From assembly GCA_028820455.1 (NCBI GenBank), contig JAPPJC010000001.1, positions 1 to 59,347 of the forward strand: 59,347 bases of DNA, written 5' to 3'. The DNA comes from Acidimicrobiaceae bacterium (GTDB lineage: Bacteria; Actinomycetota; Acidimicrobiia; Acidimicrobiales; Aldehydirespiratoraceae). Position 1 is the stretch's first letter. Every line of letters starts with the position of its first letter. Of the stretch, positions 2,928 through 57,136 are shown one piece after another. Made by a program: the position numbers and the translations under genes. The notes beneath the pieces were generated by a model. It was not told where the DNA came from, did no database searches, and saw only the letters and a list, made by a program, of their open reading frames with translations.

Positions 2928-3108
2928 CAAACAGCAACATCTTACTGGCGACAATAACGTGCAGGCCGCCCGCTGCTGAACGGCAGCTCAGAGGCCTCGT
3001 CCAAACAGCAACATCTTACTGGCGACAATAACGTGCAGGCCGCCCGCTGCTGAACGGCAGCTCAGAGGCCTCGTCCAAATAGTAACACCTTACTGGCAAC
3101 AATAACGT
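2928..3108. repeat. Three-step array: two perfect 74-bp units plus a degenerate third repeat
   Basis: Units 2928-3001 and 3002-3075 are identical over 74 bp. They are followed at 3076-3108 by a 33-bp third copy of the unit's beginning with four substitutions. Each full unit can be read as a 33-bp repeat followed by a 41-bp segment containing a stem-loop, AGGCC and GGCCT outer arms around GCTGC and GCAGC inner arms. The array ends about 20 bp before the start codon of the kinase gene at 3129. Confidence 0.92.
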
Positions 3109-9202: not shown

Positions 9203-9305
9203 CCTAATAGCCTGAATAGCGATCATCTACTGAGTGAGAGACTGGAGTGGAAGCATACAGGACTGCCATTGAACCCTAATAGCCTGAATAGCGATCATCT
9301 ACTGA
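9203..9305. repeat. 31-bp direct repeat, period 72, upstream of the SepIVA-like gene
   Basis: Bases 9203-9233 recur exactly at 9275-9305. The copies lie between the coaD stop (9140) and the next start (9337), so this pair does not include a start codon. The bases just after each copy still show weak similarity to one another. No coding region is seen in this 196-base gap. Confidence 0.88.
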
Positions 9306-10314: not shown

Positions 10315-10872
10315 ATGGATAATAGCTCTGAATCTGCTCAACTAATTTTGGACTGTGCCCAGCTAGATGCTGGTTCAACCGACACGATTGTCGTGTGCCA
10401 ACAGTTGGTGTTGGACAACGCGACTGTTGCTACAACCCACATACTGAACGGCTTGGTGACAGTAGACCTCACAGTAAATGCCACCACGGCTAAAAAACTC
10501 GTGGCCATAGGCAACGTGCACGGTACTTGGATAGCTGAATGTCGTCGCTGTCTTGACAAAATGGAAGGTCAACTTGAAGTACCAATAAGGGAAGTGTTTG
10601 AAGACACTCCCATTGAAGGTGAAACATGGCCTATTTCAATGTCACGGATCAATTTGGGGCCACCTGTACGTGAAGCTGTACTCTTGTCACTTCCTCTAAC
10701 ACCTCTATGCTCAACAACCTGCGCTGGCCCTGTACCCAACCGTTTCCCAACCGGCCCTGCGACATCCAATGAACCCGCGTCCAATAAACACGACTTAAAA
10801 GCTGTTCAATCTACCGACAAACAACCCAAAAACCCTACATGGGATGCTCTAAACCAGATACGCTTTGAATGA
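10315..10872 (+). CDS. DUF177 (YceD-like) protein upstream of rpmF
   Basis: 185 residues; VTVDLTVNATTAKKLVAIGN and GTWIAECRRCLDKMEGQLEV, then PIREVFEDTP, match the DUF177/YceD family. The CRRCL element and a later C-S-T-T-C pair look like a potential metal site, as in relatives. YceD-family genes almost always sit immediately before rpmF and are thought to act in 23S rRNA or large-subunit maturation. Here a 377-base gap separates the two genes. The C terminus has an added hydrophilic linker (PTGPATSNEPASNKHDLK). The last codons are duplicated downstream. Confidence 0.88.
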   Translation: MDNSSESAQLILDCAQLDAGSTDTIVVCQQLVLDNATVATTHILNGLVTVDLTVNATTAKKLVAIGNVHGTWIAECRRCLDKMEGQLEVPIREVFEDTPIEGETWPISMSRINLGPPVREAVLLSLPLTPLCSTTCAGPVPNRFPTGPATSNEPASNKHDLKAVQSTDKQPKNPTWDALNQIRFE

Positions 10873-10955
10873 ACACAGCAGCCCTGAGAGCTCATATGCT
10901 TTTATAGTCGACTCGCCTTCAAACCAGATACGCTTTGAATGAACACAGCAGCCCT
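10851..10955. repeat. Duplicated DUF177 3' end (35 bp, period 70)
   Basis: Bases 10851-10885, containing the last codons and TGA of the DUF177 gene, recur exactly at 10921-10955. The 35-bp filler includes GAGCTC, CATATG and GTCGAC palindromes. The remaining 294 bases to rpmF (10956-11249) contain short slipped repeats such as GATCAGCAA but no supported gene. Confidence 0.9.
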
Positions 10956-12871: not shown

Positions 12872-13069
12872 AACATGGTATCAAATTCAGTTCAAGTATG
12901 CTATCGACAAGCGCGGCGACAAACACAGACATTGCTGCATTGAAACATGATACCCCCACCCGCAAACACTGCTGAGTTAGAACAGCAGATCGGCTACAAC
13001 AATAAAGCAAAAAACGTTCACACACCCCCACCTGCAAACACTGCTGAGTTAGAACAGCAGATCGGCTAC
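12867..13069 (+). repeat. Two successive 72-bp-period duplications at the acpP-rnc junction
   Basis: A short copy (ATTGAAACATG, 12867-12877) recurs at 12939-12949 and carries both the acpP stop and an ATG. A second, 46-bp copy with one substitution lies at 12952-12997 and 13024-13069, inside the rnc reading frame. Both periods are exactly 72. The upstream decoy ATG (12875) opens a 22-codon frame ending in TGA at 12941-12943, three bases before the rnc ATG. Confidence 0.85.
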
Positions 13070-13756
13070 CAGTTCACCGATCGATCTTTATGCGACACAG
13101 CACTCACCCATACTTCTTGGTGTGCTGAGAACGACATGGGGCCTTCTAATCAACGTCTTGAATTTTTAGGTGATGCTGTTTTAGGGCTGGTAGCAGCTCA
13201 TTGGTTATACAGCGAGTACAGTGACCTATCCGAAGGCCAGATGTCTAAAGCTCGCGCTGAGATGGTAAGCAAAAACTCGTTAGCCGCAGCTGCACGGACA
13301 TGTGACTTGGGTCTATATTTGCTACTCGGTCAAGGTGAGGACAATTCTGGGGGCCGTCATAACCCGTCGCTGTTAGCTGATGGCTTAGAATCGGTTATAG
13401 GCGCAATATACCTTGACGGAGGATTAACCGCAGCTGAAACCACAATACGTAAAATACTCGGGAAATCGTTCAATAATATCGCTCAAGCCCCAGGTTTAAC
13501 CGATTTCAAAAGTCGACTCCAAGAAATAGCCGCTCATGCTGGAATCGCTCCACCTCACTACGACATAGCCAACAGTGGCCCCGAACACGACAAACGTTTT
13601 TATGCGTTGGTAACAGTTGGCGAAACGTTTGGGAAAGGAGAAGGAAGCACCAAAAAAAGTGCGTCGCAACGCGCTGCCGAACAAGCATGCGCAATACTTG
13701 CCAGCCAACTTACACAAGAAAAGAAACAAGAAAGAAATAGGCAGGAAAAGAAATAG
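12947..13756 (+). CDS. rnc: Ribonuclease III, with a duplicated N-terminal segment
   Basis: Double-strand-specific endonuclease of rRNA processing. The catalytic signature QRLEFLGDAVLGLV and the ESVIGAIYLDGGL motif supply the metal ligands. A C-terminal dsRNA-binding domain follows (FKSRLQEIAAHAG to KKSASQRAAEQACAIL). At the N terminus PPPANTAELEQQIGY occurs twice, 24 codons apart, because a 72-bp duplication kept the frame; normal RNase III begins near the second copy. No start codon exists at the second copy, so the first copy's ATG (12947) must supply translation. The lysine/arginine-rich C-terminal tail (KKQERNRQEKK) is an extra. Confidence 0.95.
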   Translation: MIPPPANTAELEQQIGYNNKAKNVHTPPPANTAELEQQIGYQFTDRSLCDTALTHTSWCAENDMGPSNQRLEFLGDAVLGLVAAHWLYSEYSDLSEGQMSKARAEMVSKNSLAAAARTCDLGLYLLLGQGEDNSGGRHNPSLLADGLESVIGAIYLDGGLTAAETTIRKILGKSFNNIAQAPGLTDFKSRLQEIAAHAGIAPPHYDIANSGPEHDKRFYALVTVGETFGKGEGSTKKSASQRAAEQACAILASQLTQEKKQERNRQEKK

Positions 13757-16456: not shown

Positions 16457-16561
16457 CAATAAGCTTCAGACAAGCATTGCAACTCCAATACCGTGGATTC
16501 TAAAAGTCTGGTGGGACCAGCATATGTGACAATAAGCTTCAGACAAGCATTGCAACTCCAA
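16457..16561. repeat. 32-bp direct repeat, period 73, after the HtrA-type gene
   Basis: Bases 16457-16488, starting three bases after the protease stop codon, recur exactly at 16530-16561. The 41-bp filler contains the perfect inverted repeat CTGGT-ggg-ACCAG. A TATAAT at 16582-16587 follows and could be the -10 element for ftsY, but no convincing -35 is seen. Confidence 0.9.
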
Positions 16562-22363: not shown

Positions 22364-22481
22364 CAGGTGGTAGACCTTTCAAAACAAGCCAGAGGCACCC
22401 GGGGTGACCCGCATACGCCGATCACGTTAGGCTAACTCAGGTGGTAGACCTTTCAAAACAAGCCAGAGGCACCTGGGGTGA
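22364..22481 (+). repeat. Duplicated yraN start (44 bp, period 74) with a 22-codon leader ORF
   Basis: Bases 22364-22407 recur at 22438-22481 with one substitution. Both contain the yraN GTG start and its first 13 codons. The decoy GTG (22367) opens 22 codons ending in TAA at 22433-22435, five bases before the real GTG at 22441. The 30-bp filler contains the perfect inverted repeat GTTAG-g-CTAAC. Confidence 0.9.
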
Positions 22482-22842: not shown

Positions 22843-22945
22843 TGAAGCCGCTTCCTGTACCCTCAGCCTCTTCCAAATCGTGTACGGCCGGACGTCGTGA
22901 CACAGGCTATGACCTTGAAGCCGCTTCCTGTACCCTCAGCCTCTT
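22843..22945. repeat. 30-bp direct repeat, period 73, between convergent yraN and glycosyltransferase genes
   Basis: Bases 22843-22872 recur exactly at 22916-22945, about 36 bases beyond the stop of the minus-strand glycosyltransferase. The 43-bp filler contains CGGCCG and GACGTC. A weak inverted repeat CACTTTT...AAAAGTG near 22790-22830 might be a terminator, but its 20-base loop makes that doubtful. Confidence 0.88.
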
Positions 22946-43048: not shown

Positions 43049-44334
43049 TGTTTCCATCGACTATGCTTTTGGCAACCGACCCTCTGCTGAGTGAGCCGAT
43101 CGGCCAAGTTGATCTTCTGCTCATGTCGGCAAAAGTGCTGACAGCTTTTGCGTTTCTGCTGGTTTCAGTGATGCTATTGATCTGGTTCGAACGCAAACTC
43201 ATCAGTCATATGCATCAGCGTATAGGCCCTACGATTGCCGGCCCTTGGGGGATACTGCAGACACTAGCGGATGGCATAAAACTGTTTTTCAAAGAAGACC
43301 TCATCCCCAGCAATTCCGACCGTTTTGTATTCAAACTGGCACCTTACCTTTCGCTGGTGCCCGCATTTCTAATCTTTACGATCATACCTTTCGGTGGCGA
43401 TTTCAACCATACTTCCACCCAAACCGATCCCGCTGCTTTAGGCACTGTCACCTGGCGGGACCACGCCACTTACCTACAAATAGCCGATCCGCATGTGGGT
43501 ATTCTGTTGTTTCTGGCAATGAGCTCCATAGCAGTGTATGGCATCATGTTAGCAGGCTGGGCTTCAGGGTCGAAGTATCCTCTGCTCGGCTCAGTAAGAG
43601 CTTCAGCGCAAATGATAAGTTATGAGGCCGCTTTGGGGCTTTCGGTGGCCTCGGTTGTGCTTATGACAGGGTCAATCTCCACCCATGACATGGTGGCTGC
43701 ACAGGCAGGTGACGGATTCGCCGGAATACTCCCCAACTGGAATGTGCTGGCAACAGGATTGGTACCTTTTTTCGTGTTCGCTATTGCTGGCACAGCTGAA
43801 CTCAATCGTCCTCCTTTTGATCTGGTGGAAGCAGAACAAGAACTAGTGGGTGGCTTCCACACCGAATATTCTTCAATCCGTTTTGCGTTGTTTTTCTTAG
43901 CAGAATTCATGAACACGATCACCATGTCCGCTATCATTGTGACACTCTTTTTCGGCGGTCCAGCAGGACCAGTGCTGATAGACAGTATCATCGGATCAGA
44001 CATAGGCTGGGCTTGGGGCGTACTATGGTTTTTTGCGAAGCTGTTTGTGTTTCTGTTTTGTTTTGTGTGGGTGCGTGCTACTTTGCCTCGTTTCCGCTAC
44101 GACCAGCTCATGAATATGGGTTGGAAACTTCTAACACCAACAGCGTTGTTGTGGTTTTTGTTCTTGAGCGCAATTAACATAGGAGACTCCCAAGGCTGGC
44201 ATCGAGCACTAGTGCTGGCAGTTTCTCTTCCAATTATGCTGCTAGCCGTTGTACTGATAAAACAAGCAGCCATAAACAGCAGCCGAACCCAAGAACAAGA
44301 ACACACTCAACAACCTTTAGACAATAGTCCCTAG
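43045..44334 (+). CDS. nuoH: NADH-quinone oxidoreductase subunit H
   Basis: 429 residues, eight or nine membrane helices. ERKLISHMHQRIGPTIAGPW, ADGIKLFFKEDLIP, GSVRASAQMISYEAALGL, GTAELNRPPFDLVEAEQEL and RATLPRFRYDQLMNMGWK are the NuoH signatures; it forms the quinone tunnel floor. It starts ATGATG overlapping the leader ORF stop. No nuoI-N follows; the next gene is an MBL hydrolase. Confidence 0.95.
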   Translation: MMFPSTMLLATDPLLSEPIGQVDLLLMSAKVLTAFAFLLVSVMLLIWFERKLISHMHQRIGPTIAGPWGILQTLADGIKLFFKEDLIPSNSDRFVFKLAPYLSLVPAFLIFTIIPFGGDFNHTSTQTDPAALGTVTWRDHATYLQIADPHVGILLFLAMSSIAVYGIMLAGWASGSKYPLLGSVRASAQMISYEAALGLSVASVVLMTGSISTHDMVAAQAGDGFAGILPNWNVLATGLVPFFVFAIAGTAELNRPPFDLVEAEQELVGGFHTEYSSIRFALFFLAEFMNTITMSAIIVTLFFGGPAGPVLIDSIIGSDIGWAWGVLWFFAKLFVFLFCFVWVRATLPRFRYDQLMNMGWKLLTPTALLWFLFLSAINIGDSQGWHRALVLAVSLPIMLLAVVLIKQAAINSSRTQEQEHTQQPLDNSP

Positions 44335-44409
44335 GCAAACAGCACATGCGCCCAGGGTATCAACCGTAGAAATCATCACACCAATAGTCCCTAGGCAAAC
44401 AGCACATGC
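44322..44409 (+). repeat. Duplicated nuoH-MBL junction (28 bp, period 60)
   Basis: Bases 44322-44349, including the nuoH TAG, recur exactly at 44382-44409, where they include the MBL gene's ATG (44406). The decoy ATG at 44346 reads only seven codons before a stop. The 60-bp period is an outlier from the 70-75 bp class. Confidence 0.9.
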
Positions 44410-45128
44410 TAAAACAGTTTTATTTCAAACAACTTCTATCAGGACAGGATTTTGCGCATGACGACCCTCTAGCCGATGAGATGGTTAACTTTGTTTACGC
44501 TGTAGGTGACCGTGACACTTCTGAGGCTGTGCTGATCGATCCTGCTTACGATATCAAGGGACTCCTCAGGGTGCTAGAAGCCGACGGCATGAAATGCGTG
44601 GGAGTGCTTGCCACTCACTATCATCCTGATCATGTGGGTGGGCAGATGTCAGGACTGAATATCGAAGGTATAACACAACTTTTGACACTTGTGTCCGTGC
44701 CTATTTACATTCAAACCGACGAAACTCATTACGTACGAGCAGTTACAGGTGTAGGTAACGACCACTTGGTGAAATGCTCATCCGGTGAAACGATCTCAGT
44801 GGGCTCAATAGAGATTGAACTGATACACACCCCAGGACATACACCAGGTAGCCAATGTTTTTTAGTGGAAGACAGGCTCATAGCAGGCGACACGCTCTTC
44901 CTTGAAGGTTGTGGTCGTACTGACCTACCAGGGGGTGACCCAGCTCAGATGTATGAAAGCCTCACAACCAAACTAACTAAAGTACCAGACAGCGTAATCT
45001 TATATCCCGGTCATTATTACTCGTCCGAGTCTTCAGCAACAATGGGCCACACACGCCAGCACAACGAAGTGTTTCACCACTCAAACCGAAAGCAATGGCT
45101 AGCCAATTTTGCTCCTTTCCAGCTGTGA
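44406..45128 (+). CDS. MBL-fold hydrolase (glyoxalase II-like)
   Basis: 240 residues of the metallo-beta-lactamase fold: THYHPDHVGG (HxHxDH metal site), IELIHTPGHTPGSQCFL, IAGDTLFLEGCGRTDLPGGD and LYPGHYY. The pattern is close to hydroxyacylglutathione hydrolase and persulfide dioxygenase-type enzymes, but the substrate cannot be read from sequence. It follows nuoH within a duplicated junction; its own 3' end is also duplicated. Confidence 0.85.
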   Translation: MLKQFYFKQLLSGQDFAHDDPLADEMVNFVYAVGDRDTSEAVLIDPAYDIKGLLRVLEADGMKCVGVLATHYHPDHVGGQMSGLNIEGITQLLTLVSVPIYIQTDETHYVRAVTGVGNDHLVKCSSGETISVGSIEIELIHTPGHTPGSQCFLVEDRLIAGDTLFLEGCGRTDLPGGDPAQMYESLTTKLTKVPDSVILYPGHYYSSESSATMGHTRQHNEVFHHSNRKQWLANFAPFQL

Positions 45129-45231
45129 TTAGAACCCCTACCCAGTGCTTAGAACAGGAAGCCGAATACACCCACACCGTACAACTCACACCCAGCTGTG
45201 ATTAGAACCCCTACCCAGTGCTTAGAACAGG
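45119..45231. repeat. Duplicated 3' end of the MBL gene (40 bp, period 73)
   Basis: Bases 45119-45158, containing the last codons and TGA of the MBL gene, recur exactly at 45192-45231 with a 33-bp filler. They lie in the convergent gap before the histidine kinase gene. Confidence 0.9.
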
Positions 45232-46627: not shown

Positions 46628-48019
46628 TCAGTCCAAGCCTTCAGTTTCTGCAGCATCAAGAGCGCTTATAACCGCATCTAGCATGCGTGCGCTGCATCCT
46701 TCCATCATGACAGGTGGCACATATTCTTCTGATAGCTGTCGTGCTATCCACTGAAAAGCTGCAGTGGCTGTGGTCGGTGTAGACATAGCAGCCGCTGAGG
46801 AAGCGGAAGCAGCATCAGATAATGGTGTAGACTCAGTATCAGTAGGTGCAAAAAAGGCAGGTGTCGTGTTGGATTCAAGGTCAGCAGTATCGGCAGTACC
46901 AGCTGTTAACAGAGCTGCCGGCTGACCACGGTCACACCCATCGGAAACTGCAGTATCCAAAGGTATGCGCCCCAACAGAGGAACCCCAACTTCCCGAGCT
47001 AACTGCTGCCCACCGCCAACACCGAACACGTTAAGGCTTTTGCCGTCAGGAGTGAACAGTTCGCTCATGTTTTCGATTATTCCCACTATCCGCAGAAAGT
47101 TTTTACGACCCATGTCCGCAACTCGCGCCGCTACCTTTTGAGCGGCTTTAGCAGGAGTTGTGACGATTATCATTTCAGCTCGGGGGAGCATTCTCGCTAA
47201 ACCCATCTGCACATCTCCTGTGCCTGGCGGCATATCGATCACCAAGTATGCAAGGTCGTCACTCCATACGACATCCTCACAAAAATGCTGCACAGCCCTG
47301 TTCAACATCAAACCACGCCACATAAGTGCGGTGTCTTCACGGTCAACCAGAAAACCCATGGACACCACATCCAAGCGACCCGAACCGACAGCCTGGGATA
47401 TAGGTATTATCTTGCCGTCTTCCGAACGCAAACTCCCTTCCAACCCCAGCATACGGGGAACCGAATAACCCCAAATATCAGCATCCATAACACCCACCGC
47501 AAAACCATTATTTGCTAGTGCTGCAGCTAAATTAGTGGCAACAGAAGATTTACCCACCCCACCTTTACCGCTAGCGATCATCAATACTTTAGTGGTGGCA
47601 GGTATTGACGTATCGGGAGCTTTCTGGGCTACGTTCCAACGGGCTTTCGCCATGGCGGCAGCCTTCTCACCAGCAGTCAATTCAGACCAAATAATTTTGA
47701 CTTTGGTAATGTCAGGCAACGACTCTAGCCGGGCTTTCACGTCACGTTGAATCTGCGCTCGTAGTGGGCATCCCGAGGTGGTGAGGGCAACCTCGACATG
47801 TACCACCCCGTCGGGTAATATTTGAACCCCACGAGCCATACCCAGCTCCACTAGGTTACTTCCCAGTTCAGGGTCAACCACTCCCCGCAGCAAGTTCATG
47901 ACATCCTCAGGCAACAAATCCGCGGATTCTTCTTGAACCTGTGCTGCAGTACCCTTTGACAAAGGCGAGGTAGCTTCAACTTCTTGGGACTGAGACGGCT
48001 GCAATCCTTCAACACTCAT
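46628..48019 (-). CDS. mrp: Mrp/ApbC-type P-loop ATPase, Fe-S cluster carrier
   Basis: 463 residues. An N-terminal DUF59/MIP18-like domain (LRGVVDPELGSNLVELG, then TTSGCPLRAQI) is followed by the Mrp ATPase: ASGKGGVGKSSVATNLA (deviant Walker A), VMDADIWGYSVPRMLG, VIDMPPGTGDVQMGLA and GIIENMSELFTPDGK. Most Mrp proteins have a CxxC cluster site after IENMS; here that position is TPDG, without the pair. A C-terminal Ser/Ala/Thr linker precedes a helical tail. It is divergent from the IscA/ErpA gene, which supports an Fe-S role. Its start is echoed upstream several times. Confidence 0.9.
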   Translation of the reverse strand: MSVEGLQPSQSQEVEATSPLSKGTAAQVQEESADLLPEDVMNLLRGVVDPELGSNLVELGMARGVQILPDGVVHVEVALTTSGCPLRAQIQRDVKARLESLPDITKVKIIWSELTAGEKAAAMAKARWNVAQKAPDTSIPATTKVLMIASGKGGVGKSSVATNLAAALANNGFAVGVMDADIWGYSVPRMLGLEGSLRSEDGKIIPISQAVGSGRLDVVSMGFLVDREDTALMWRGLMLNRAVQHFCEDVVWSDDLAYLVIDMPPGTGDVQMGLARMLPRAEMIIVTTPAKAAQKVAARVADMGRKNFLRIVGIIENMSELFTPDGKSLNVFGVGGGQQLAREVGVPLLGRIPLDTAVSDGCDRGQPAALLTAGTADTADLESNTTPAFFAPTDTESTPLSDAASASSAAAMSTPTTATAAFQWIARQLSEEYVPPVMMEGCSARMLDAVISALDAAETEGLD

Positions 48020-48224
48020 ACAGTTACATCAGCCCACTTTAAGGGCATGCCCATAATCAACGAACGCCACCTGAAGCCCTTCAATACTCATATAATCATC
48101 TTCAACGCTCACTATGATTATAGAGCTATATCAGCCCGCTATTACCACCACACCCATACTTGGCAACGCTCACTATGATTATAGAGCTATATCAGCCCGC
48201 TATTACCACCACACCCATACTTGG
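48001..48224 (-). repeat. Ladder of duplicated mrp start regions, including a 61-bp tandem repeat
   Basis: The mrp start (MSVEGLQ, ATG at 48019) has a diverged copy 72 bp upstream (decoy ATG 48091, MSIEGLQ). Its frame of 20 codons ends nine bases before the real ATG. A GTG at 48112 (MSVEDDY) and another at 48173 (MSVAKYG) continue the series. The last two lie in perfect 61-bp tandem units, 48103-48163 and 48164-48224. Confidence 0.8.
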
Positions 48225-48239
48225 CAATTGCAGCCAGCT

Positions 48240-48344
48240 CCTGCTTATGTTGCTATCGTAGCAAATATGGCATAATACATGGTACAAGCTGCTACTGCAA
48301 TCCCTGTGCTGTTACCTGCTTATGTTGCTATCGTAGCAAATATG
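48240..48344 (+). repeat. Duplicated erpA start (30 bp, period 75)
   Basis: Bases 48240-48269 recur exactly at 48315-48344; the second copy carries the ATG of the IscA-family gene (48342). The decoy ATG (48267) reads ATG GCA TAA only. An in-frame extension from 48279 passes through the second copy and is probably not the start. Confidence 0.9.
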
Positions 48345-48662
48345 ATTACTCTTACCACAACAGCTGTTGAAAAAGTGGCTGAACTCATTGCAGCCGAATC
48401 TGAAAATGGTCTGGCTTTGCGCGTAGCAGTACGTCCCGGGGGCTGTTCAGGGTTTTCTTACGACATGTACTTTGATACCGATTTCGCCGAGGATGACCGC
48501 AAAGCCCAGTTTGGGAATGTTGAAGTAGTGGTGGACTCCTCCTCTGCAATGCTGCTCGAGGGAGCGACACTCGACTACTCGGACGGTTTGCAGAAAGCAG
48601 GCTTCTCTATCGACAATCCCAATGCGCAAAGAACCTGCGGCTGTGGCCAAAGTTTCAGCTGA
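48342..48662 (+). CDS. erpA: HesB/IscA-family Fe-S cluster carrier (ErpA-like)
   Basis: 106 residues from ATG 48342 (MITLTTTAVEKVAELI). RVAVRPGGCSGFSYDM and the C-terminal QRTCGCGQSF supply the three conserved cysteines of A-type carriers. It delivers [4Fe-4S] or [2Fe-2S] clusters to targets such as respiratory subunits, many of which are encoded just upstream. Divergent from mrp. Confidence 0.92.
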   Translation: MITLTTTAVEKVAELIAAESENGLALRVAVRPGGCSGFSYDMYFDTDFAEDDRKAQFGNVEVVVDSSSAMLLEGATLDYSDGLQKAGFSIDNPNAQRTCGCGQSFS

Positions 48663-48680: not shown

Positions 48681-49400
48681 GTGTCGGACAGTATACCCCT
48701 GCCTCCAGGATGGTATGAAGACCCCGAAAACCCGAGACTGTGGCGTTACTGGAAAGGAGATATGTGGACCGAACATCGGCAGCCACGAGACCCTCAACTT
48801 CCAAACTTAGCACCAGTCACACTTCCGAGTACTTCAAGTAGCTCCTACGTGAGATCACCTGCCTATGAGCCCCAGACACCAACGGCCAACAATCCGCAAC
48901 CATCTACCTACGCTCAACCAACCCAACAACCTATATCAGGCCCACACAACCACATTGAATCCTCCCTACCAACAAATGGAACAAATGGAGCACCGCCTCC
49001 AGGATGGTATGAAGACCCTGAAAACCCGAGACTGTGGCGTTACTGGAATGGCATCACTTGGACAGAAAACCGTGCAACCCACCAGCAACTGGCACAGCAT
49101 TACCAGCAGCAAACAACCTCCGAAGAGGAAACCAGCATACAGGAAAATCCTTTCAAGGATAACCAGCAAAAACTTCAGGATCAAGAGGATCAACAGCTAG
49201 TAGAGAACATCCGCCTGAAACAGGCAGAAGAAGTCGCAGAGAAGTCTATAAAGTGGTTTAAAACCAGCTGGCGCTACCCAGCACGTCGAGTCCTGATCAT
49301 AGCAGTACCTGTATTGATCTTCTTGTGGCCAGAAATGCTGTTTTCAATAATTCTCATTGGGTTGATCTTTGCATTGATTAAAGTGATGAAGAGCCTCTAA
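48681..49400 (+). CDS. DUF2510 protein with two WYxDP modules and a membrane tail
   Basis: 239 residues. PPGWYEDPENPRLWRYWKGD near the N terminus and an almost identical copy at about residue 104 are DUF2510 modules, found in actinobacterial membrane-linked proteins. The two share about 50 bp of near-identical DNA (48700-48754 and 48992-49046), so the second arose by duplication with little divergence. A Gln/Glu-rich coiled coil and a C-terminal hydrophobic hairpin (VLIIAVPVLIFLWPEML) follow. GTG start. Function unknown. Confidence 0.8.
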   Translation: MSDSIPLPPGWYEDPENPRLWRYWKGDMWTEHRQPRDPQLPNLAPVTLPSTSSSSYVRSPAYEPQTPTANNPQPSTYAQPTQQPISGPHNHIESSLPTNGTNGAPPPGWYEDPENPRLWRYWNGITWTENRATHQQLAQHYQQQTTSEEETSIQENPFKDNQQKLQDQEDQQLVENIRLKQAEEVAEKSIKWFKTSWRYPARRVLIIAVPVLIFLWPEMLFSIILIGLIFALIKVMKSL

Positions 49401-56800: not shown

Positions 56801-57055
56801 GACGCGTTGGAAACGAACGACAGTGCTGTGAAAGTCCTCGGTGACGAAACTCTCAGATCCATAGCCTGTGAGCTAGTCGAGACTGTCCGCGAGAACGTCA
56901 CCATCGACTGGACTATGCGTGAGAACGTACGAGCAAACCTCCGCCGTCTCGTTCGCCGCATCCTGCGCCGTCACGACTACCCACCAGACAAGCAGGAGAA
57001 AGCCACCCAAACAGTCCTAGAGCAGGCCGAAGCCCTATCCGCGGCGACTGCTTGA
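53807..57055 (+). CDS. hsdR: Type I restriction enzyme HsdR subunit
   Basis: 1082 residues. Endonuclease domain: [20 protein letters not shown] gives the D...E-x-K metal site (about residues 146-163). SF2 translocase: [20 protein letters not shown] (Walker A, about 361), [26 protein letters not shown] (DEAH, about 468), [10 protein letters not shown] and [19 protein letters not shown]. It cleaves and translocates DNA in complex with HsdM and HsdS. An unusual Pro/Ser/Asp-rich insertion of about 55 residues (nt 54700-54860) sits directly before Walker A. The GTG start at 53807 could instead be ATG 53816. Its 3' end is duplicated downstream. Confidence 0.95.
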
Positions 57056-57136
57056 ACGGTTGGTACGCAACATTGAGTCTAGCATTTACTGCTGATACGC
57101 ACCAGAGCCTGTCAGCGGCGACTGCTTGAACGGTTG
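57041..57136 (+). repeat. Duplicated hsdR 3' end (22 bp plus weaker flanks, period 74)
   Basis: Bases 57041-57062, with the last codons and TGA of hsdR, recur exactly at 57115-57136; similarity extends weakly on both sides. The 52-bp filler is unrelated. This places the window-wide repeat pattern inside the acquired island. Confidence 0.82.

Follow-up and report, generated by a model that had tools for sequence, protein, structure and literature searches.

Start-like copies upstream of mrp

The window analyzed here is contig C79 (59,347 nt) of a metagenome-assembled genome (MAG) of 84 contigs and 2.41 Mb, the nearest relatives of which are Acidimicrobiia MAGs. It carries the divergently oriented genes mrp and erpA. 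The mrp gene encodes a NUBPL/Mrp iron-sulfur (Fe-S) carrier and was called as an open reading frame on the minus strand (46628–48019; Pfam PF10609, E = 9e-78, and PF01883) with the start MSVEGLQ at 48019. The erpA gene, which belongs to Fe-S biosynthesis, lies on the plus strand at 48342–48662 (Pfam PF01521, E = 2e-19). Copies of the mrp start are arranged like a ladder upstream of the gene, and we regard this ladder as a probable local and partly decayed instance of a genome-wide process, the off-target integration of CRISPR (clustered regularly interspaced short palindromic repeats) spacers.

On the mrp strand, start-like copies are found 72, 93, and 154 bases upstream of the called start (ATGAGTGTTGAAGGATTGCAG); the ladder described in the first-pass annotation is thus real, with all quoted letters in place. 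The near-copy ATGAGTATTGAAGGGCTTCAG, which encodes MSIEGLQ, has its ATG at 48091–48089, exactly 72 bp upstream of the mrp start, and differs from it at 4 of 21 bases, resulting in one exchange of valine for isoleucine and three silent changes, as had been claimed. It opens a "decoy" frame of 20 codons plus a TGA (48029–48091, minus strand), and the sequence confirmed that the TGA ends nine bases short of the mrp ATG. The similarity of the pair extends over 22 bp (47999–48020 versus 48071–48092) with 82% identity.

The two outer copies, GTGAGCGTTGAAGATGATTAT (MSVEDDY) and GTGAGCGTTGCCAAGTATGGG (MSVAKYG), both open with GTG instead of ATG. They lie within a perfect twofold tandem repeat of 61 bp on the minus strand, which was found with Tandem Repeats Finder (TRF; score 250) as well as by a repeat search. 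The inner unit (48103–48163) contains GTGAGCGTTG (MSVEDDY), the outer unit (48164–48224; MSVAKYG) is identical to it, and a TATAAT is present in each. The earlier description of 61-bp tandem units was therefore correct for this repeat, but the steps of the ladder are unequal (72, 21, and 61 bp), and the 61-bp unit accounts for the outer step only. The 61-bp unit resembled the start-proximal segment more than expected by chance (0 of 5000 shuffles). Searches for the unit at other loci of the genome and in the genus mate yielded none, and a dispersed mobile repeat resembling a miniature inverted-repeat transposable element was ruled out, because the unit is unique to the mrp locus within the genome. 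Neither of the CRISPR array repeats of the genome is present at mrp.

The erpA side and the gap in relatives

Separate from the mrp ladder, an exact direct repeat of 30 bp with an offset of 75 covers the erpA start on the plus strand. The native copy (48315–48344) ends in the erpA ATG, which is where the ErpA proteins of relatives begin, and the upstream copy (48240–48269; 30/30 identical) ends with an ATG that is followed by GCATAA. A perfect inverted repeat, TTGCTA-TCG-TAGCAA, is located just before the erpA ATG (48324–48338) and again in the upstream copy (48249–48263); it is possibly an operator or an element of a leaderless promoter. On its other side, erpA adjoins a gene for a DUF2510 protein (48681–49400), with two copies of the motif WYEDPENPRLWRYW.

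The two genes are divergent neighbors also in most close relatives. In most of these, the distance from the erpA start to the position equivalent to Mrp residue 38 is about 120–200 bp, compared with about 434 bp in the window, and the gap carries a single, leaderless-looking mrp start (TAGCAT, 5–7 nt, GTG or ATG). The Mrp proteins of relatives begin about 10 codons before residue 38, i.e., near residue 28 of the window protein. In the window, the equivalent codon is a GTT (in the segment 47908–48019). The designation of MSVEGLQ as the real start thus agrees with the open reading frame call, but not with the beginning of Mrp in relatives. Judged from the sequences, the mrp start may have been shifted upstream in the window, or the called start may be wrong.

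Repeat-spacer-repeat duplications throughout the genome

A scan for local direct repeats, which covered 2.35 Mb of the genome, revealed 216 duplications in which two copies of a native sequence (R) flank a spacer-like segment (S). These R-S-R duplications fall into three fixed geometries, namely about 36+36 (period 72–74), about 36+30 (65–66), and about 28+32 (60–61). For the recent events, with identical or nearly identical copies, the modes of R and S were 36–37/35–36, 34–37/29–30, and 28/32, respectively. Non-coding repeats numbered 46 at an offset of 72 bp, 31 at 73 bp, 16 at 61 bp, and 7 at 66 bp, compared with a background of 0.25 per offset at offsets of 80–199. The same scan of 58 loci from relatives (0.59 Mb) yielded 4 repeats at offsets of 59–76, a rate about 13-fold lower. 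No event was found in 12.5 kb of the genus mate, a sample too small to judge. As the offsets 61, 72, and 75 at mrp and erpA lie inside the genome-wide peaks, the ladder fits this pattern, and the earlier phrase "repeated rounds of the same process at one site" turned out to be a good description of a process that is visible genome-wide. Beside the CRISPR-like offsets, the genome also has an excess of full tandems with a period of 21 (16 cases).

The R sequence differs at each locus and is native sequence, e.g., the starts of an RsmD-like gene, a coaD-like gene, trmD, and erpA, and the sequence between the copies is locus-specific and unrelated to R. A canonical CRISPR array could be ruled out as the identity of these structures, because no repeat is common to the units. 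For the 36+36 class, the search for a boundary motif revealed only a weak bias in composition. At several loci the unit is amplified, with a period d and a self-match of d plus about 36, in most cases the period plus R, which is the length that recombination between R copies would yield.

The events are strongly depleted in coding sequence, which contains 20% of them and makes up 75% of the bases. When they occur within genes, 40 of 44 change the length by a multiple of three, in contrast to 74 of 172 non-coding events (P = 5e-9). Such a frame bias and coding depletion are as expected for real insertions that are filtered by selection. An exopolyphosphatase with an R-S-R event has tens of extra residues there in comparison with solved homologues. 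Leucine-rich repeat proteins were considered as the cause of the coding 72-bp offset and rejected, because only one case (L136) resembles them and the remaining coding cases are unrelated.

These observations also bear on the question of whether the repeats are an artefact, in which the assembly placed strain variants or chimeric reads in tandem. The MAG is fragmented, and artificial-looking repeats occur at some contig ends. The filtering for frame, the depletion in genes, and the fact that spacer and neighboring sequence are not alleles of each other all speak against such an artefact, which we consider very improbable. Two loci on different contigs (L165 on C45 and L243 on C21) share long identical stretches and are possibly an uncollapsed duplicate of the assembly.

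Sixteen insertion scars lie in the 59 kb of the window, a density about threefold that of the genome on average (P = 2e-4), and several contigs have none. Four of them cover gene starts on the plus strand, i.e., those of an RsmD-like methyltransferase gene (PF03602; 7801–7906, R 33, offset 73), a coaD-like gene (PF01467; 8581–8687, R 36, offset 71), trmD (PF01746; 20959–21069, R 37, offset 74), and a further gene (22364–22481, R 44, offset 74). At 12952–13069 on the plus strand, an in-frame event of 72 bp, equivalent to 24 codons, lies in an RNase III gene (12947–13756). The event at 2928–3108 is amplified to R-S-R-S-R according to TRF (period 74, self-match 107, i.e., 74+33), and the one at 44322–44409 belongs to the 28+32 class with an offset of 60. 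The scan for direct repeats added 2310–2419 (R 37, offset 73), 2712–2824 (R 41, offset 72), 9203–9305 (R 31, offset 72), 10851–10955 (R 35, offset 70), 16457–16561 (R 32, offset 73), 22843–22945 (R 30, offset 73), 45119–45231 (R 40, offset 73), and 57041–57136 (R 22, offset 74). The spacer of the remaining event (347–455, R 35, offset 74) matches another site of the genome (L245) over 28 nt at 96%.

CRISPR modules of matching geometry

The genome encodes adaptation modules. A type I-G locus includes a cas4g-cas1g fusion (NF049935, 748 bits), Cas3g, Csb1, and Csb2, with no call for a separate I-G cas2; the operon looks complete. A type I-G array with a 36-bp repeat and a spacing of 72–74 bp (36+36–38) lies on contig C29, and the same repeat recurs at the start of contig C28 as a second array (operon and second array, L150:1–10454 and L149:1–200). 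The opposite end of C29 carries a type I-E-like array (L248:6887–7917) with at least 17 exact 28-bp repeats and a period of 61 (28+33); its cas genes probably lie off the contig. On contig C58 there is a type II cas9-cas1-cas2 locus (cas1 TIGR03639, cas2 TIGR01573), and no type II array was found in the assembly. Type II arrays usually have a geometry of about 36+30.

The scars of the 36+36 and 28+32 classes thus share their geometry with the I-G and I-E-like arrays, and the class of about 36+30 fits type II as generally known. We infer that each class goes back to the module of the same geometry. Similarity to the I-E repeat was seen for the targets of the 60–61 class (P = 9e-7, with one of the counted sites being part of the array itself).

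Origin of the inserts

For 12 of 219 spacers, a match of 26–37 nt to another site of the genome was found, which in most cases was nearly full-length and had unrelated flanks. Random 37-mers that served as a control matched elsewhere in 9 of about 1000 cases. Examples are the spacer at L139:5235, which matches L230 at 36 of 36 positions, and the spacer at L225:779, which matches a tRNA-like sequence in L223 at 30 of 30. Canonical array spacers had no matches to the chromosome.

Inserts with a distant source and unrelated flanks cannot be explained by tandem duplication. Alternatively, replication slippage followed by divergence, unrelated to CRISPR, might have generated the 61- and 72-bp tandem copies of the mrp start region in a lineage with a high rate of duplication. 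Several observations are compatible with slippage: the 61-bp repeat is a full tandem, perfect and without a distinct spacer, the block next to the start may represent an old 72-bp duplication that reaches beyond 36 bp, and many other full tandems of short period (18–54) exist in the genome. However, most of the repeats with offsets of 60–76 are interrupted by locus-specific, unrelated spacers, some of these were copied from distant loci, and three fixed R+S geometries equal to CRISPR repeat plus spacer would not be expected from slippage. For the mrp ladder, slippage is a possible but rather less probable origin.

Off-target spacer integration as a model

We hypothesized that a Cas1-Cas2 integrase would act at an ordinary chromosomal site and attack its two strands at points separated by about one repeat length, i.e., 36 bp for types I-G and II and 28–29 bp for type I-E, and that a fragment of about spacer length would be inserted there. 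Filling of the gaps would duplicate the target, so that the new fragment would become flanked by two native copies. If the target covered a gene start, a "decoy" start would arise about 60–75 bp upstream, and recombination between the R copies could amplify the unit to R-S-R-S-R. Off-target integration is favored because it explains the fixed geometry, the duplication of the target, the captured inserts, and the lack of a common unit alike, and it is very probably the source of the genome-wide pattern, with Cas1-Cas2 as the presumed agent.

At the mrp/erpA gap, the balance tips only slightly toward a local case of the same integration, in which the ladder would be old and composite and the offsets of 61, 72, and 75 bp would be of CRISPR origin. 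In favor of insertion, the gap is several times longer than in relatives. The overall grading given at the outset for the ladder is a compromise between the genome-wide and the local assessments.

Several results do not sit easily with off-target integration. At the locus itself, the 61-bp tandem has only 3 bp beyond one period, and R-S-R-S-R would give about 28; the 72-bp pair is old and comprises 22 bp at 82% identity, and the history of the ladder includes a 21-bp step; and no fragment of the mrp/erpA gap matches elsewhere in the genome. With respect to the machinery, I-E cas1 and cse1 are absent from the assembly, which is incomplete, the targets of the 36+36 class do not resemble the I-G repeat (P = 0.35), and an inspection of the source sites by eye for a protospacer adjacent motif revealed no consistent motif. 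Finally, in many of the 72–74 events R falls short of 36, and the sequence beyond it retains little homology (0.41 versus a background of 0.375). The simple model accounts for a short R at a constant offset only if the edges decayed later, and these events are only partly explained; gapped alignment lengthens some short R copies to about 36.

Are the copied starts functional?

The first-pass annotation had suggested that the decoy peptide itself is translated and constrained. Copied starts that are translated could regulate mrp via translational coupling or by competition between starts, with conservation of the peptide. Three observations are in line with such a function, i.e., that three of the four differences are silent, that the frame closes 9 nt before the mrp ATG, and that each 61-bp unit contains a TATAAT. 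The bias toward silent changes is weak, as four random substitutions over the seven codons lead to at most one amino acid change in 3% of cases (P about 0.03), and it would also arise if selection acted on the mrp copy alone. A comparison of the mrp-erpA region across relatives, which had been proposed as a check, showed that the decoy frames are not kept, an outcome that had been named in advance as refuting the idea; none was present in the short gap of any relative inspected. In addition, the R copies throughout the genome overlap 36 called stops and only 21 called starts. This rules out a duplication process specific for starts and likewise argues against functional decoys. A constrained decoy peptide was therefore not supported, and a role of the copied starts as upstream open reading frames is hardly probable. 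Most likely, the decoy starts are by-products and not selected devices.

Relation to known systems and implications

Non-canonical integration of spacers has been described in E. coli upon over-expression of Cas1-Cas2 (Nivala, Shipman and Church 2018, Nat Microbiol 3:310, as cited in PMC9456107 and PMC11788318). Such neo-CRISPR loci share with the present events a spacer-sized insert outside of an array, a repeat-sized duplication of the target, and, for the 60–61 class, a resemblance of the sites to the native repeat. The present case differs in that one genome contains more than 200 events in three geometry classes, which lie in and around housekeeping genes and include decayed and amplified copies. 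Frequent off-target integration has also been reported for the minimal Cas1 integrase of type V-C (PMC13034035). It is likewise a natural integrase that often inserts outside of the array, but in type V-C both repeats and spacers are about half-size, whereas the geometry found here is that of types I-G, II, and I-E. A repeat-spacer-repeat anatomy is also present in orphan or mini CRISPR arrays, but here each R is a distinct native sequence, such as the coaD, trmD, and erpA starts, and no common CRISPR repeat exists.

Nivala, Shipman and Church reportedly also noted a few putative natural cases in 2018. Apart from a few suspected natural cases, off-target integration has thus far been known chiefly from engineered E. 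coli. The literature searched, which does not cover most subscription journals, contained no description of a natural genome in which hundreds of events occur. The reaction is of a known kind; what appears to be new is its scale and the effect that it has on genes.

It is likely that several CRISPR adaptation modules have acted as genome-wide insertional mutators in this lineage, at more than 200 sites, with in-frame additions of 24 codons to housekeeping proteins and with gene starts being relocated or copied. In such genomes, a "decoy start", a short tandem repeat, or an insertion of 24 residues would then have to be viewed as a scar and not as a functional element. If the interpretation is true, the choice of targets, the origin of spacers from self or foreign DNA, the repeat-length rulers, selection, and the birth of new arrays would become countable in vivo. 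With about nine events per 100 kb, CRISPR adaptation could be a strong natural mutator and would contribute substantially to genome change outside of immunity.
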